Part shown: positions 2,711 to 26,383 of the stretch, one piece after another
How the letters are laid out: each line of letters opens with the position of its first letter
Numbering within the stretch: the stretch's first letter is position 1
IMG/VR virus record: IMGVR_UViG_3300027746_000006
Span: 1-29,448 of that record
From: a virus
Reading direction: 5' to 3' (one strand)
Length of the DNA: 29,448 bases
Translations under genes and position numbers: made by a program
The notes under the pieces: model-generated
What the model was told of the DNA's origin: nothing
Database searches by the model: none
What the model saw: the letters and a program-made list of their open reading frames with translations, nothing else

Positions 2711-3848
2711 CACCGTAATCTTTGAGAAGAACTATGAAGCCCTCCAAGATAAGGATGTACGGTTTATAATAAATGAGGGAGGAAGTAGGTCATCTAAGAC
2801 ATATTCCCTTTGTCAAATGATAATTGTCTACTCTCTCCAAAATAAGGGGAAGGTTACCTCTATTATAAGAAAAACGTTTCCGGCTCTCAGAGCAACAGTC
2901 ATGAGGGATTTCCTTGAGATAATGAAGGAGATGGATCTATACGATGTCAACTCCCATAACAAGTCGGAGCACATCTACACATTCCCGAATGGAAGCATCG
3001 TTGAGTTCTTCTCAGTGGATGATGAGCAAAAGATACGAGGAAGGAAACGTGACCTCGCATGGTGCAACGAAGCCAATGAACTATTCTATGACGACTTCAC
3101 TCAGCTCAACATGAGAACGGAATGGAAGCTCATCTTCGATTACAATCCAAGTGAATCAGCATCCTGGTTGTATGAGCTACCGAAGGAGGAGAGCATCCTC
3201 ATCAAGTCAACGTACCGAGACAATCCATTCCTTCCCGATTCCATCCGTAGACAAATCGAGGACCTCAAGAGAACGGATGAGTCCCTGTATCAAATATACG
3301 CACTCGGTGAGAAGGCAATCAGCAAGAGCAACATCTATTCCAATTGGACATTCGTGAAGCATCGACCTGCCAGGTTCGTCAACTATGTGTATGGACTTGA
3401 CTTCGGTTACAATCACCCCACTGCTCTCATGCGAGTGTATTGGTGTGAGGATGACATCTACATCGAGCCGGTCATCTATGAGAGTTACCTCACCACCACC
3501 AACCTCATTGAGAGATGTGAATCATTGGGAGTCGAGAAGCACATCACCATTGTAGCGGATTACGCACGACCTGAGATAATTGCTGAGATGAACAATGCAG
3601 GATACGATGTGCAGAATGCGAACAAGGTGGTCAAGAAGGGAATCGATAACATCAAAACCTTCGGAGTGTTTTGCGAGGATGAGTCCAGGATAAAAAAGGA
3701 ATACGAGAATTATAAGTGGAAAAAGATTGGTGACCAAATTACTGATGAGCCGGTGAAGCTATGGGATGATGCTATGGATGCGGTGAGATATGCCGGTACC
3801 TACATCCGAAAGGAATACTATACCGATGACAGTTACTTCGCCTTCTAA
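2697..3848 (+). CDS. terL: Terminase large subunit (PBSX/Terminase_3 type)
   Basis: A 383-aa packaging ATPase-nuclease. Walker A is GGSRSSKT (28-35); the Walker B region is LAWCNEAN (120-127) with catalytic Glu126. The C-terminal RNase H-like nuclease has the expected acids: GLDFG (Asp235), VADYA (Asp288) and LWDDAMDAVRY (Asp357/358/361). It pumps DNA into the prohead through the portal and cuts the concatemer. It is slightly short for the family (about 400-450 aa) but all key residues are present. The ATG at 2697 overlaps the preceding small gene by 14 bases. Confidence 0.95.
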   Translation: MEINSTVIFEKNYEALQDKDVRFIINEGGSRSSKTYSLCQMIIVYSLQNKGKVTSIIRKTFPALRATVMRDFLEIMKEMDLYDVNSHNKSEHIYTFPNGSIVEFFSVDDEQKIRGRKRDLAWCNEANELFYDDFTQLNMRTEWKLIFDYNPSESASWLYELPKEESILIKSTYRDNPFLPDSIRRQIEDLKRTDESLYQIYALGEKAISKSNIYSNWTFVKHRPARFVNYVYGLDFGYNHPTALMRVYWCEDDIYIEPVIYESYLTTTNLIERCESLGVEKHITIVADYARPEIIAEMNNAGYDVQNANKVVKKGIDNIKTFGVFCEDESRIKKEYENYKWKKIGDQITDEPVKLWDDAMDAVRYAGTYIRKEYYTDDSYFAF

Positions 3849-12200: not shown

Positions 12201-12646
12201 TATCATATCAAGCACTAACCGATGAAATCATCGCCTTCTACAATGCACACCTCCAGGTTAAAAAGGTAGGCACTGATTTTAAGGAGCAGTTATTCAACTT
12301 CGCCACTAAGGATGAGAAGTATCCACTCGTGTATGTGGTCCCTGTGGATGTCATTGCAGGTGATAACGTGAACTTATTCAACCTTGAGATATATTGCTTT
12401 GATATCATTCAAAAAGACCGTACAAATATCACGACAATTCTCTCAGATACTCAGCAGATTCTCAATGACCTTTATTTGAACTATACATTCTCATTGACTG
12501 ACACTGATTTCGATGTGGAAGGATTCCCAACGTTCACCCCATTGAACAATGACCTCTTGGATTACGCAGCAGGATGGTTGATGAGCATTACTTTTGTACT
12601 TCCATCGTGGACTGATTGCCAAATTCCTGAACAAATTGGTGATTAA
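12197..12646 (+). CDS. Tail terminator-like protein
   Basis: A 149-aa protein starting in an ATGA overlap with the tape measure gene. It has LQVKKVGTDFKEQLFNFATK, then YPLVYVVPVDVIAGDNVNLFNLEIYCFDII, ILSDTQQILNDLY, and a C-terminal strand WLMSITFVLPSW. This layout (YPL strand, long central strands, helix, final strand) matches tail terminator or completion proteins of Bacteroidota siphoviruses, which cap the tail tube and join it to the head. The assignment rests on pattern and context. Confidence 0.6.
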   Translation: MISYQALTDEIIAFYNAHLQVKKVGTDFKEQLFNFATKDEKYPLVYVVPVDVIAGDNVNLFNLEIYCFDIIQKDRTNITTILSDTQQILNDLYLNYTFSLTDTDFDVEGFPTFTPLNNDLLDYAAGWLMSITFVLPSWTDCQIPEQIGD

Positions 12647-12648
12647 TC

Positions 12649-12658
12649 TTAATATATA
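12649..12658 (+). promoter_or_regulatory. TTAATATATA motif upstream of the neck-protein gene
   Basis: Second exact copy of the 10-mer, three bases before the ATG at 12662 and immediately after the stop of the tail terminator gene. See the copies at 3867 and 14354. Either a promoter-like element or a translation-initiation enhancer. Confidence 0.4.
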
Positions 12659-12661
12659 AGT

Positions 12662-13084
12662 ATGGCTTACAAGAACACAGGCGAATTCAACATCAAATAT
12701 CCCACGAGAAGAAGGGTGGCGAATGTATTAAAGAAGATTATCGTTGATGAATCGTTGATTGATACACGCACTTTGTATGATTCCATCCGTATCAACGCCA
12801 AAGTAACTACCGAAGGCAATCTTCGTATTGAAATACTCGCAGCATATTACTTCGGATTTCTAAACAACGGTACAATCAGCATCGCACCTTATCATTTGGT
12901 GCGTAAATTCAACACCGCACTTGAGCAACAAGGATTGATATCCGAGATGTACGGACAATACGTTCAAAACATGGCTCAAAAGTTCCCTATCCTGGAGCTT
13001 GGTGGATTGCTTCGTAAAAAAGTAAAAGTGATTTATGATTTCAATCCTCTTTTCGGAGAGTTTTGGGATGCATTGGATTACTAA
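12662..13084 (+). CDS. Head-tail joining (HK97 gp10-like) neck protein
   Basis: A 140-aa protein with DTRTLYDSIRINAKVTTEG followed by LRIEILAAYYFGFLNNGT, the core of gp10-like head-tail connector proteins (a helix, then a strand ending in a glycine turn). The C-terminus (about 116-140) is basic then aromatic. Its TAA stop (13082-13084) overlaps the TAG stop of the convergent minus-strand gene, leaving no space between them. Role by analogy: joining tail to head. Confidence 0.6.
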   Translation: MAYKNTGEFNIKYPTRRRVANVLKKIIVDESLIDTRTLYDSIRINAKVTTEGNLRIEILAAYYFGFLNNGTISIAPYHLVRKFNTALEQQGLISEMYGQYVQNMAQKFPILELGGLLRKKVKVIYDFNPLFGEFWDALDY

Positions 13085-21615: not shown

Positions 21616-21646
21616 TATATTTACAACTCATTAGCGTGTGTAATTG

Positions 21647-21675
21647 GGGGTATCGGAAACGGTACCTCTTTTTTT
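21647..21675 (+). terminator. Strong intrinsic terminator with GNRA loop
   Basis: A 9-bp stem, GGGGTATCG (21647-21655) with CGGTACCTC (21660-21668), two G-T pairs, a GAAA tetraloop and a T7 run to 21675. It lies 31 bases after the phosphoesterase stop and closes the late region, insulating the control region that follows. Confidence 0.9.
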
Positions 21676-21752
21676 GTCCCTAATTTATCAAGTTTACGGG
21701 ACTAATAACTTGACAAACATTTGCCAATATTTGCATTTAGTGTCTTTTGTAT

Positions 21753-21788
21753 ATACGCATTGATACGAATTGATACGTAAAATATACG
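21753..21788 (+). repeat. Phased ATACG repeats
   Basis: ATACG starts at 21753, 21763, 21773 and 21784, that is, at 10, 10 and 11 bases, close to one helix turn. Two copies are part of a longer ATTGATACG repeat (21759 and 21769). Related TTACG elements occur at 21802 and 21844. The spacing suggests cooperative binding by a protein on one face of the DNA. The last repeat is also the left arm of the first dyad. Confidence 0.55.
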
Positions 21789-21904
21789 CAATCGGGTATA
21801 GTTACGTGAATTTCACCTTGATTAAGTAGTTTTCACGTATAATTTACGTACCCCATCGGGTACAAAATAACCCATTTCCCATACATGAATACCCCATCGG
21901 GTAT
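21784..21904. promoter_or_regulatory. Three 16-bp dyads with a CATC-type centre (operator array)
   Basis: Dyad 1 (21784-21799) is ATACGC-AATC-GGGTAT, with one mismatch between arms. Dyad 2 (21848-21863) is GTACCC-CATC-GGGTAC and dyad 3 (21889-21904) is ATACCC-CATC-GGGTAT, both perfect. Centre-to-centre distances are 64 and 41 bases, the latter near four helix turns. They lie 50-170 bases before the -33 element at 21954. The simplest reading is binding sites of a dimeric regulator, perhaps one of the phage HTH proteins. Confidence 0.6.
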
Positions 21905-21953
21905 AGCATTCACGATTTATTTTGTTGAAAACTGAAAAAAAAGTTAAAAAAGT

Positions 21954-21983
21954 TTTGCATTTATGAAACATTTAATATCTTTG
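21954..21983 (+). promoter_or_regulatory. Early promoter, Bacteroidota type (TTTG-N18-TATCTTTG)
   Basis: TTTG at 21954-21957 and TATCTTTG at 21976-21983, spaced by 18 bases, fit the Bacteroidota consensus TTTG-N17-21-TAnnTTTG closely. The start would be near 21988, giving a leader of about 20 bases before the ATG at 22010. This would be the main promoter of the early operon 22010-23672. Confidence 0.82.
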
Positions 21984-22009
21984 TGGAGTAAACAATTAAA
22001 AACAACGCA

Positions 22010-22955: not shown

Positions 22956-23086
22956 GTTACTATTCGGGAAGTTCAATCATTCAGTCCTGGACATTTCCAT
23001 CCAAAGCACTGTGCTATTGGAAAAAATCGGAGCTCTTGAATCAAGGGTTGTGTGTGGTTGGTAAGTTTAAAGTTGAGCCGGTATGA
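22943..23086 (+). CDS. 47-aa micro-protein
   Basis: The reading frame is open further upstream (to 22793), but that part duplicates the two overlapping micro-genes and reads as an unstructured basic shadow, so the ATG at 22943 is the likelier start (13-base overlap). The product, with YSGSSIIQSWTFPS and ending GKFKVEPV, is short and beta-like. The stop overlaps the next start. No domain recognised. Confidence 0.5.
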   Translation: MYKLSYYSGSSIIQSWTFPSKALCYWKKSELLNQGLCVVGKFKVEPV

Positions 23087-23271
23087 ATCAGCATCGAATC
23101 ATGCGAGTGATCAAGCTCATTGATTTCCTAAAAGAGAAACCTCGACACATCTACACGATGGCAAGATATCTCGGAATCAGCGAGAGATCAGTGTATAGAT
23201 ACCTCAAGATGTATGAGCAATTAGGATACCAGGTGGAGAGAGATATTAATAAGAAATACTTTATAAGATGA
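23083..23271 (+). CDS. Small HTH DNA-binding protein (DeoR/HTH_11-like)
   Basis: A 62-aa winged-helix-type domain: IKLIDFLKEKPRHIYTMARYL, then GISERSVYRYLKMYEQLGY as the recognition helix, and a wing-like end VERDINKKYFIR. This is the N-terminal DNA-binding part of DeoR/WYL-type regulators with no ligand-binding domain. Located just before the DnaA-like gene and between the two control regions, it is a candidate binder of the dyads or repeats. Overlaps both neighbours by 4 bases. Confidence 0.75.
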   Translation: MNQHRIMRVIKLIDFLKEKPRHIYTMARYLGISERSVYRYLKMYEQLGYQVERDINKKYFIR

Positions 23272-23672
23272 CAAAGAACGAGAAAATCAAAGCAATTAAA
23301 GTAATCATCCAACGAGATGGATTAGATACCAAGAATAGAAAACAAGTCAATAACATGAGGAGGAGGTATCTGATGACATCACTCCGGGCATTGAATATGC
23401 CATTCAAAGTGGTGGGTGAGATGTTTAATCGTGATCATGCAACAGTGATTCACAACATCAAGCAGCATCATTGGTCAATTGAAAGCGGTGACTTATATTA
23501 CACAACGGTCATCCAGGATGATATCGATGAGCTTCATGGGACCGCAGATGTGAAATATTGCAGATATTTGAGAGATGATATCCTCAAATGCAAGTCGTAC
23601 AATCAGCTCAAATCAATCAAAAGAAGGGTGCTAAAGAATGAATATGAGGAATTGTTATCAGTTAAGCAATAA
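23268..23672 (+). CDS. Stand-alone DnaA domain IV-like DNA-binding protein
   Basis: A 134-aa protein lacking any ATPase part. Residues 23-70 match the DnaA DNA-binding domain IV: RKQVNNMRRRYLMTSLRAL, then PFKVVGEMF and NRDHATVIHNIKQHH (54-68), which carries the DnaA signature (RDHxTVxHxxxxI). DnaA uses this to bind origin boxes. The C-terminal third (about 91-134) is charged and helical. The gene lies directly upstream of a repeat-rich non-coding region and the primase-helicase gene, so it could be an origin-binding initiator, or a repressor that titrates host DnaA boxes. The motif is clear; the role is inferred. Confidence 0.8.
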   Translation: MTKNEKIKAIKVIIQRDGLDTKNRKQVNNMRRRYLMTSLRALNMPFKVVGEMFNRDHATVIHNIKQHHWSIESGDLYYTTVIQDDIDELHGTADVKYCRYLRDDILKCKSYNQLKSIKRRVLKNEYEELLSVKQ

Positions 23673-23675
23673 AAT

Positions 23676-23853
23676 AGGTACTTAAGTACACATTTTCCCT
23701 CATATACTTATACTTATTTATTTATTTTGAGAATCGGAAAAAATAATATTTTCAAAAAATACCAAAAAAACGTGAAAATGTGTACCAAAAACGCTGAAAC
23801 ATCAGTAAACATTGGATTTTGGTAGGTACACTTGTAGGTACACATTGAGGTAC
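23676..23853. repeat. AGGTAC repeat array, candidate origin or operator
   Basis: The non-coding region 23673-23992 is AT-rich and holds AGGTAC at 23676, 23824, 23836 and 23848 (the last three exactly 12 bases apart). It also has an inverted pair GTACACATTTT (23686-23696) and AAAATGTGTAC (23775-23785), and the perfect 12-bp palindrome GTACTTAAGTAC (23678-23689). The middle, about 23697-23770, is very A/T-rich, as in unwinding elements. With the DnaA-like gene ending just upstream, this looks like a replication origin or an operator for the primase promoter. Confidence 0.6.
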
Positions 23854-23873
23854 TAATTGAAAATAAAGTGTAT

Positions 23874-23906
23874 TTTGATGAGTAATGGAATAAATTACTA
23901 TCTTTG
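23874..23906 (+). promoter_or_regulatory. Promoter of the primase-helicase operon
   Basis: TTTG at 23874-23877 and TATCTTTG at 23899-23906 with 21 bases between, a good -7 element with slightly long spacing. The start is predicted near 23911. It lies 20 bases after the last AGGTAC repeat, so a protein bound there could control it. Confidence 0.7.
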
Positions 23907-23908
23907 TT

Positions 23909-23979
23909 GAGGGGTTGTCGGAGGCATCCACTTAAAAGGTTTTCACTGTTCCTTTCCCCCTCTTTTTTTTAACAGTGAA
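23909..23979 (+). promoter_or_regulatory. Primase leader with competing hairpins
   Basis: The leader contains GAGGGG (23909-23914) complementary to CCCCTC (23957-23962), with an inner AAAGG/CCTTT pair (23935-23939 with 23951-23955), followed by T8: a terminator-like form. TTCACTGTT (23942-23950) and AACAGTGAA (23971-23979) are a perfect 9-bp inverted repeat enclosing the CCCCTC-T8 segment, so the two structures cannot both form. This is a possible attenuator or translational switch upstream of the ATG at 23993. It could also be simple transcript structure; the long loop of the first stem weakens the case. Confidence 0.5.
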
Positions 23980-23992
23980 TTAAAACAGTATT

Positions 23993-26383
23993 ATGATCGT
24001 ATCAATTTTTAAGAAGGTAACGGATACCACAAATCCATTCAACAAATCAGCTCTCTATTGCCTCGAAAGAATTCGAGATGGTAAGTCAAAAGAATTGGTT
24101 GAACAAATCAGAGCTTGTTCCACGAAGGATGAGCAGAAACCATTCAAGAATCAGCTTCCTGGTGTTTGTTTCAATGGAACTTTCAAGAGTCGTTCAGTAA
24201 AAGGTATCGAACAAAGGTCCGGATTGATGGTGTTGGACTTCGATAACATGAGCCATACCGCTGAGGCAATTCAATTCAAGGATTCCTTGATGTTCAACAA
24301 CTTTGTTTTCAGTGCATGGATATCACCAAGTGGAAAAGGAGTGAAGGCATTGGTCAAGATTCCAACTGATGGAGATTTCAAAGGGTATTTTGATGCCTTG
24401 AGAACTTACTTTGATTCGGACTATTGGGATAGCTCAGGGAGTAATCTTGACCGCTTTTGTTTTGAGAGTTACGATCCAAATATTTATATCAACCATGACT
24501 CAATCATATGGACTCAACTTGAGGAGCCGGAGATTGAGGAAATTGGCTCGATGGATGTGATGATTCCAATCAAGTCCGACAACCGTATCATTGATAACTT
24601 GATGAAATGGTGGGAACGGAAGTATGGAATGATACCAGGTGAGAAGAATAACAACCTATTTAAACTTGCAGCTGCATTCAATGACTTTGGAATTCAGAAA
24701 ACTGAATGCGAGAATGTGATGCTGAAATTTGATGAAGGCGGAAAGGATAACGAGATTCGAAAGATAATCAAATCAGCATATTCCAAGACCTCTCAATTCG
24801 GGACCAGGTACTTTGAAGATAATACCTCAAGGGCAAAGATTGAGAAACACATCCGAGCAGGTAAAAAGACCAATGATATCATCAAGATACTTCCGGAGTT
24901 TACTCAAGATGAAGTTGAGAAGTGCGTTGATGCAATCAAAGAAACGGGGAACATCGAGGACTTTTGGACTTACAACAATCAGAATCGAATTCAGTTGAGC
25001 ATCCATCAGTACAAATTTTGGCTACAACAAAACAATTTTTTCAAATACTTTCCTGCTGATTCCAATACTTACTCATTCATTAAGAAGGAGCAGAATCTAA
25101 TTGAGGAAACAAATGAGAAGAGAATCAAGGATTTCACCCTCAGCTCTCTATTGTCGAGGGAGGAGATTGGATTCCAACCGTATGATTTGATGGCAGGTGC
25201 AACCAAATACTTCACATCTGAATTCCTTTCCATGTTGGACAGTGCTCAAGTTGAGATGATGGAAGATACTGCGGATAAGTGTTATTTATATTATCGCAAT
25301 TGTGCGGTTGAAATTACCAAGCAAGGCATATTCAAGCATGAGTACATTGACTTGGATGGATATGTATGGAAGAGGCAGATAATTGACCGAGAATATATCG
25401 CAAGTGATCACCATAAAAGTGAGTTTAGAACATTCCTTTGGTTGGTAAGTGGTAAAGATTCAGCGAAGTACAATTCATTCAAGTCAGTGATTGGATACTT
25501 GATGCATTCATATAAGACCTCAGCGAGTAATAAGGCAATCATATTCAACGATGAAACCATCTCAGAGAATCCGAATGGAGGAAGTGGAAAGGGATTGTTT
25601 TGGAATGCATTGGCTAAGTTAAAAAAGGTAGCTTCAATCGATGGAAAGACATTTGAATTCACCAAAGGATTTCCATATCAAACAGTGTCAACCGATACGC
25701 AGCTCTTGGTGTTTGATGATGTGAAAAAGAACTTCAACTTTGAGAATCTCTTCTCATTGATTACTGAGGGAATCACATTGGAGTACAAAGGGCAGGATGC
25801 CATCAAAATACCGGTAAACAAATCACCGAAAATCATTATCACAACCAACTACACAATTGGTGGAGTGGGTGGCTCATTTGAGAGAAGGAAGTTCGAAGTG
25901 GAGATGAGCAACTATTTTGGTCACACACGATCACCATTGGATGAATTCGGTCATATGTTGTTTGATGATTGGAATGACCAGGAGTGGGTAATCTTTGACA
26001 ACTTCATGATTCAATGCTGCCAATATTACCTTAAGTATGGATTGGTATCTCATGAGTTTACCAACCTGGATGTGCGTAAATTCATCAAGGAAACTTGCTT
26101 TGAGTTTTACGATTGGTCGGGTGATGGAAACCTTCCTCTCAATGTGAGGTTGTACAAAGATGAGCTTCATGAATCATTTATTAGTGAGTACACCGATTAT
26201 GCTAAACTGAGCAAAAAGAAATTCTCTCAATGGTTGAGTATCTTTGGTCATTATCATGGATATAAGATTGATGAGAATAAAACAAACAATAGAAGATGGA
26301 TTGAATTCGGAAGGACCGATAAAACACCAAGTGATCCCGATGACATTTGGGATGAGTTAAACGATAAAGCAAAGGAGATATGA
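23993..26383 (+). CDS. Primase-helicase (VirE_N / BT4734-like primase with SF3-type helicase)
   Basis: A 796-aa replication protein. The N-terminal VirE_N-like domain (1-180) has LMVLDFDNMS (79-87, paired metal-binding Asp), SPSGKGVKALVKIP (111-124) and NLDRFCF (151-157). A helical PriCT-like linker follows (about 215-275). The C-terminal SF3/D5-like ATPase has Walker A NPNGGSGKGLF (526-536, Lys533 with Gly where Ser/Thr is usual), Walker B LLVFDD (571-576), motif C PKIIITTN (612-619) and an arginine pair at 631-632. It would prime and unwind phage DNA. Follows the candidate origin and leader, and overlaps the nuclease gene by 4 bases. Confidence 0.88.
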   Translation: MIVSIFKKVTDTTNPFNKSALYCLERIRDGKSKELVEQIRACSTKDEQKPFKNQLPGVCFNGTFKSRSVKGIEQRSGLMVLDFDNMSHTAEAIQFKDSLMFNNFVFSAWISPSGKGVKALVKIPTDGDFKGYFDALRTYFDSDYWDSSGSNLDRFCFESYDPNIYINHDSIIWTQLEEPEIEEIGSMDVMIPIKSDNRIIDNLMKWWERKYGMIPGEKNNNLFKLAAAFNDFGIQKTECENVMLKFDEGGKDNEIRKIIKSAYSKTSQFGTRYFEDNTSRAKIEKHIRAGKKTNDIIKILPEFTQDEVEKCVDAIKETGNIEDFWTYNNQNRIQLSIHQYKFWLQQNNFFKYFPADSNTYSFIKKEQNLIEETNEKRIKDFTLSSLLSREEIGFQPYDLMAGATKYFTSEFLSMLDSAQVEMMEDTADKCYLYYRNCAVEITKQGIFKHEYIDLDGYVWKRQIIDREYIASDHHKSEFRTFLWLVSGKDSAKYNSFKSVIGYLMHSYKTSASNKAIIFNDETISENPNGGSGKGLFWNALAKLKKVASIDGKTFEFTKGFPYQTVSTDTQLLVFDDVKKNFNFENLFSLITEGITLEYKGQDAIKIPVNKSPKIIITTNYTIGGVGGSFERRKFEVEMSNYFGHTRSPLDEFGHMLFDDWNDQEWVIFDNFMIQCCQYYLKYGLVSHEFTNLDVRKFIKETCFEFYDWSGDGNLPLNVRLYKDELHESFISEYTDYAKLSKKKFSQWLSIFGHYHGYKIDENKTNNRRWIEFGRTDKTPSDPDDIWDELNDKAKEI

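Follow-up and report, generated by a model that had tools for sequence, protein, structure and literature searches.

The DNA analysed here (the window, 29,448 bp) is a linear IMG/VR virus record that encodes a terminase, a portal protein and virion genes. Its right part is occupied by a replication/recombination region with, in order, an HTH protein, a stand-alone DnaA domain IV-like protein (DnaA-IV), an intergenic region, a primase-helicase, an HNH-like nuclease, an Erf-like annealing protein, an exonuclease and an SSB-like DUF3127 protein. The HTH gene (62 aa; 23083–23271, plus strand) overlaps the start of the DnaA-IV gene by ATGA; in relatives its presence and position vary, the gene having been gained or lost upstream of DnaA-IV.

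The DnaA domain IV protein

The DnaA-IV gene (23268–23672, plus strand) encodes 134 aa, with an HTH part at about residues 14–75 and a helical C-terminal part at 76–130. The original prediction, which read the signature RDHATVIH as a DnaA box-binding domain without its ATPase, was borne out: the signature is present, the Pfam model Bac_DnaA_C matches residues 14–66 with 32.8 bits (just over the cut-off of 31.5), neither Pfam nor NCBIfam gave an AAA+ match in the protein, and the NCBIfam DnaA models cover it through their C-terminal part only. When a profile of 24 DnaA-IV relatives (A1) was compared with the PDB, the top six matches were all DnaA (3pvp, E = 9.5e-7; 1j1v, E = 4e-6). Structure prediction agreed, the AlphaFold model (pLDDT 85) having as its top Foldseek match the DNA-binding domain of Mycobacterium tuberculosis DnaA in complex with a DnaA box (probability 0.97 and a target-normalised TM of 0.68, but an E-value of only about 1). 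The gene encodes a true DnaA domain IV without the motor.

R24, R32, H57 and H62 are invariant in the alignment of the 24 relatives; we take these residues to be equivalent to R399, R407, H434 and H439 of E. coli DnaA, and D56 to D433, with the roles that the DnaA–DNA structure gives them. D56 varies between D and G, and the position equivalent to T435 (A58 in the window) is A, S or G in relatives. Because the DNA-contact residues are largely kept, DnaA-IV probably still binds DNA somewhere. It thus resembles domain IV of bacterial DnaA in its signature-bearing HTH and in most DNA-contact residues, but differs in the absence of the AAA+ domain, in its extra helical part, in the altered D433 and T435 equivalents of many relatives, and in its setting in a region without DnaA boxes. 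Perfect TTWTCCACA is absent from the window, one-mismatch matches number 15 against 24 expected, and nothing in the array region described below lies within one mismatch of TTATNCACA; DnaA-box scans were accordingly set aside as giving no signal beyond chance.

The protein matched nothing in the phages collection. No relative was returned at E ≤ 1e-10 when 200 genomes from the family to which a Flavobacterium MAG belongs were searched, a result that is uninformative as the search had no positive control, and a literature search for stand-alone DnaA-IV in phages, with most subscription journals outside its reach, found nothing.

The repeat array and the primase-helicase gene

Behind the DnaA-IV gene lies an array of six sites, arranged in two sets on either side of an AT-rich stretch. 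AGGTAC was confirmed at the four positions first reported (23676, 23824, 23836 and 23848); two sites had been missed, namely a direct one, AGTACACATTTT, at 23685–23696 and an inverted one, an exact GGTACACATTTT, at 23775–23786 (minus strand). The first set, AGGTAC(N4)GTACACATTTT, spans 23676–23696 and the second, three AGGTAC units with a 12-bp period, spans 23824–23859 (both plus strand). The stretch between them (23698–23774; 21% GC) is a candidate melting region, and the lowest-GC 77-bp segment of the record starts at 23702. In relatives with GGTAC-type arrays the cores are invariant at identical offsets, while the 4-nt spacers vary, so that the array proved to be conserved. The 320-bp region holds five GGTAC against 0.56 expected, and 0.1% of shuffles reach five (P = 0.001); for any 6-mer with at least four copies, about 11 of 2000 shuffles went beyond the usual. 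GGTAC alone is not diagnostic of the array, since the whole window holds 55 copies against 20.5 expected, most of them outside the array region. GC skew climbs steadily along the window with no switch at the array, which, the record being a linear phage, neither supports nor refutes an origin there.

A 12-bp palindrome, GTACTTAAGTAC (23678–23689), is present as first described, but its centre (TTAA, TTTG or ACAA in relatives) is not conserved; the palindrome was therefore rejected as a functional unit and is read as a by-product of two adjacent sites. A second intergenic region, 21632–22009, holds repeats such as CCCCATCGGGTA(C/T) and TTACGTG/CACGTA, is strongly different even among near relatives and resembles a control or immunity region. 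Its GGTAC sites were considered as a second target and rejected, as near relatives do not conserve them.

Downstream of the array, a putative promoter of the primase gene, TTTG-N21-TATCTTTG (23874–23906, plus strand), was recognised in the sequence by what we take to be the Bacteroidetes consensus, and a promoter-like box lies 3′ of the array in the array types examined. The gene itself (23993–26383, plus strand; 796 aa) encodes an archaeo-eukaryotic-type primase (BT4734-like_N, 66.9 bits; PriCT_1, 23.7 bits; both over cut-off) joined to SF3-type helicase motifs (GGSGKG, LLVFDDV and KIIITTNY), of which the Walker A, Walker B and motif-C-like strings are conserved in alignment A2. No Pfam helicase model matched the protein, and its primase profile had zero matches in the PDB. 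The AlphaFold model (pLDDT 37) was too poor for a fold search; predicted secondary structure alone places a helix-helix-strand-strand segment, a candidate winged helix, at about residues 723–774. In the phages collection a 43%-identical primase was found in MW202828.1, where a "dnaA" gene of 100 aa lies some 2.4 kb upstream. Two small proteins of this deposited phage genome (L089), at 3297–3599 and 12371–12940, are annotated as dnaA or chromosomal replication initiation protein, and both lie near the primase.

Array type and cassette exchange among relatives

A scan of IMG/VR yielded 58 relatives of DnaA-IV, nearly all of which carry one of three repeat types behind the gene: GGTAC (type 1), CGTCAC (type 2) or, in a distant group, CGTTACAA (type 3). 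Exceptions in the typing were L058, which is too distant for comparison, and L042–L044, which carry an inserted gene. Identity of the downstream primase to that of the window is 94–100% with GGTAC arrays, about 37% with CGTCAC and 36% with CGTTACAA. Wherever the primase is 95–100% identical, the GGTAC array is found at the same offsets, be the DnaA-IV protein 95–100% or 74–78% identical, and loci with a 37%-identical primase carry CGTCAC-type repeats even where DnaA-IV is 98% identical. DnaA-IV residues 1–128 are the same in the window, in L001 (GGTAC) and in L002 (CGTCAC), and of the DnaA-IV pairs with 97% identity or more, 38% have matching array types, against 50% expected. Comparison of these loci shows that array type co-segregates with the downstream primase-helicase and not with DnaA-IV.

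The DNA of L002 is 100% identical to the window over 23268–23650 (383 bp), cannot be aligned until 26339, and is then again 100% identical over 47 bp, up to the end of the primase gene. L002 thus has a CGTCAC array and a 37%-identical primase beside an identical DnaA-IV gene, and most of the genes flanking on both sides are 74–99% identical. With L002 and L003 alike, 23651–26338 is unalignable inside and bordered by 98–100% identity directly outside; identity outside and none inside indicates that the block was exchanged as a unit. Judged from these alignments, array, promoter, leader and primase-helicase form an exchangeable cassette that is swapped between phages with otherwise similar neighbourhoods. 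Exchange points fall at gene borders (ATGA overlaps, last codons), those of the primase block being 23650 and 26339.

In a third lineage (L049–L057) the third repeat, CGTTACAA (7-mer P about 0.04–0.06), accompanies a third primase, and in L085 GTTGTCACG recurs many times between DnaA-IV and primase. DnaA-IV is the constant neighbour in all three array lineages and in L085. The original prediction suggested a DnaA DNA-binding domain separated from its motor; on this view DnaA-IV would bind the array and bring in the primase-helicase. The order of DnaA-IV gene, array and primase, for which relatives were to be searched, is indeed kept in the three lineages, the R399, R407 and H434 equivalents are retained, and GTACACA is similar to the NCACA half of a DnaA box. 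Such a split DnaA is nevertheless highly improbable: the same DnaA-IV stands beside unrelated arrays and a diverged one (74–78%) beside the same array, the scarcity of DnaA boxes in the window speaks against it, and in L065–L068 and L070 the DnaA-IV and primase genes directly adjoin, without an intervening array. Moreover, the type-1 and type-2 regions share no motif of at least 7 bases other than A-tracts; the short motifs in common are A-tracts and, in types 1 and 2, CTTATA, which is too short for a claim. Since identical DnaA-IV proteins occur beside unrelated arrays and the reverse, the array is most likely not the specific target of DnaA-IV. Of the initiation module first proposed, the domain IV protein, the array and the adjoining primase-helicase stand, while DnaA-IV as binder of the array does not, as the array follows the primase. 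DnaA-IV is probably a separate, constant companion that would regulate the replication operon or assist it as an accessory factor.

Co-segregation of array and primase could also arise from linkage alone, as the two are adjacent, and different host factors could read both arrays. The DnaA-IV gene is, however, equally near on the other side, yet does not co-segregate. That host or phage factors beyond the cassette read the arrays, with the primase following by linkage only, is also highly improbable: the sequence itself does not directly identify the binder, but the primase is the sole protein gene in the exchanged block of L003, and three array/primase pairings were observed.

The C-terminal segment of the primase-helicase is its most divergent part between array types (21–23% identity, against 53–57% in the helicase core) and is near-identical within type 1. 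Within type 2 it is 72% identical between L002 and L014, where the repeat core is still CGTCAC.

Leader RNAs and the proposed origin

Between promoter and primase gene the window has a leader (23909–23979, plus strand) with a terminator-like hairpin (GAGGGG/CCCCTC) and T8, in which a 9-nt loop segment, TTCACTGTT (23942–23950), is exactly complementary to AACAGTGAA (23971–23979), shortly before the primase start. This leader is nearly invariant in relatives, leaving no variation for covariation, and folds without the pseudoknot no better than shuffles (z = 0.31). Its layout is comparable to that of a structured leader found between array and primase in many relatives, but it is not a member by sequence. 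The relatives' leader comprises a hairpin with a T-run behind it, an internal loop (AGTA/GAA), a short upper helix, and a loop that would form a pseudoknot with a complementary 5′ arm close to where transcription is expected to start. Examples are L002:5629–5720, L003:3639–3731, L011:5646–5732, L047:2450–2542, L049:1559–1646 and L168:3939–4026, among others. Rfam has no match to the leader.

The structure of the relatives' leader is supported by covariation, with 18 cells changed on both sides in type-3 leaders and 17 in those of types 1 and 2 together, and 0 of 500 shuffles as high in each case; hairpin stems reach −18.7 kcal/mol with their own partner versus −9.8 with partners from other sequences. 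A pattern scan of viral contigs returned about as many matches as were estimated to arise by chance, and leaders were kept only if they had the hairpin, the T-run and an upstream GCAG. In 49 of 50 distinct leaders (against a mean of 12 after shuffling) the loop has an exact complement in the 6-nt 5′ arm, which occurs in five sequence versions; because the filter sets four of the arm bases, only the remaining two are informative in this count. Of the 40 leaders with a 3′ copy, 38 repeat these six bases immediately ahead of the start codon. As the loop can pair with either arm, a switch is suggested, in which the loop would pair alternately with the 5′ and the 3′ arm. Genes after leaders encode BT4734-type primases, DUF6291 and other possible replication proteins, and HNH proteins. 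Genes for NUMOD4/HNH homing-type endonucleases lie between leader and primase in L011 (5748–6224) and also in L007, L002 and L047. No leader RNA was found in 200 genomes, again a search with no positive control and hence uninformative.

We infer origin function for the array region, binding by the primase C terminus and the companion role of DnaA-IV from these comparisons: 23673–23992 is probably an iteron-type origin recognised by its own primase-helicase, with DnaA-IV as a companion that does not read the array. The primase-helicase would bind its own iterons in two sets, via the candidate C-terminal winged helix, melt the AT-rich stretch between them, load itself and prime, so that array and primase-helicase would constitute one co-adapted cassette, exchanged as a block. 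The two iteron sets flanking the AT minimum of the record argue for this model. The same region is probably also the control region of the primase-helicase gene, and sites near the promoter may add autoregulation. A purely transcriptional array, in which 23824–23859 binds an activator or repressor (perhaps the primase) and origin function is absent, has a minor though appreciable chance of being correct: those sites sit 15–50 bp ahead of the −33 box in the primase promoter, which adjoins the array here as a promoter-like box does in the other types examined. It accounts poorly for the first set and the inverted site, about 90–200 bp further up, for the bracketing of the AT minimum, and for the fact that leader cassettes are common to different array types but arrays remain with their primase.

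An iteron origin of the proposed kind has known counterparts, in that short repeats lie beside an initiator gene around an AT-rich stretch and repeat type is paired with initiator type. In PICI origins an AT-rich stretch is flanked by two iteron sets (PMC6092414), and SaPI Rep and Cch2 bind iterons through C-terminal domains (PMC7581432); P4 alpha binds its origin repeats through a winged helix (PMC4234260). The most divergent segment of the primase-helicase occupies the position of the origin-binding domains in SaPI Rep, Cch2 and P4 alpha. SaPI/PICI rep-ori and SCCmec Cch2 (PMC6092414, PMC7581432) resemble the window in having an initiator helicase that loads itself and is linked to a primase (a mode proposed here), in the cognate iterons that adjoin the gene in two sets around an AT-rich stretch, and in allelic initiator variants, but their origin lies downstream of the helicase gene rather than upstream, and the passages considered do not mention a DnaA-IV companion; the window, unlike SaPI/PICI, belongs to a phage that encodes its own terminase and portal. 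P4 alpha likewise combines primase, helicase and winged helix (the latter two being candidates here) with origin repeats (PMC4234260), but its primase is TOPRIM-type, not archaeo-eukaryotic. ORF904 of pRN1 and the protein of Bordetella phage BIP-1 have an AEP primase, SF3 helicase and winged helix in one chain (PMC4234260), but there the proposed origin is a stem-loop 3′ of the gene instead of iterons.

A further, rather unlikely reading makes DnaA-IV a generic licensing or loading adaptor for any downstream cassette, with expression in many relatives tuned by the pseudoknotted leader RNA. It might contact host DnaA, host helicase or the primase, or bind an AT-rich element such as CTTATA; if so, initiator cassettes would be swappable beneath a constant DnaA-derived component. 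Most likely, the module belongs to a known class of origin/initiator pairs and is unusual in its DnaA-derived companion. The cassette swap is the strongest result and the leader RNA the most promising lead. Near-identical neighbourhoods with different origin and primase-helicase amount to a natural swap experiment that assigns the iteron array to its probable initiator, and the three candidate cognate array/initiator pairs in one neighbourhood could be used to map the specificity of AEP-SF3 initiators. They also raise the question of why a DnaA domain IV protein is retained in these phages beside an origin that it seemingly does not read.
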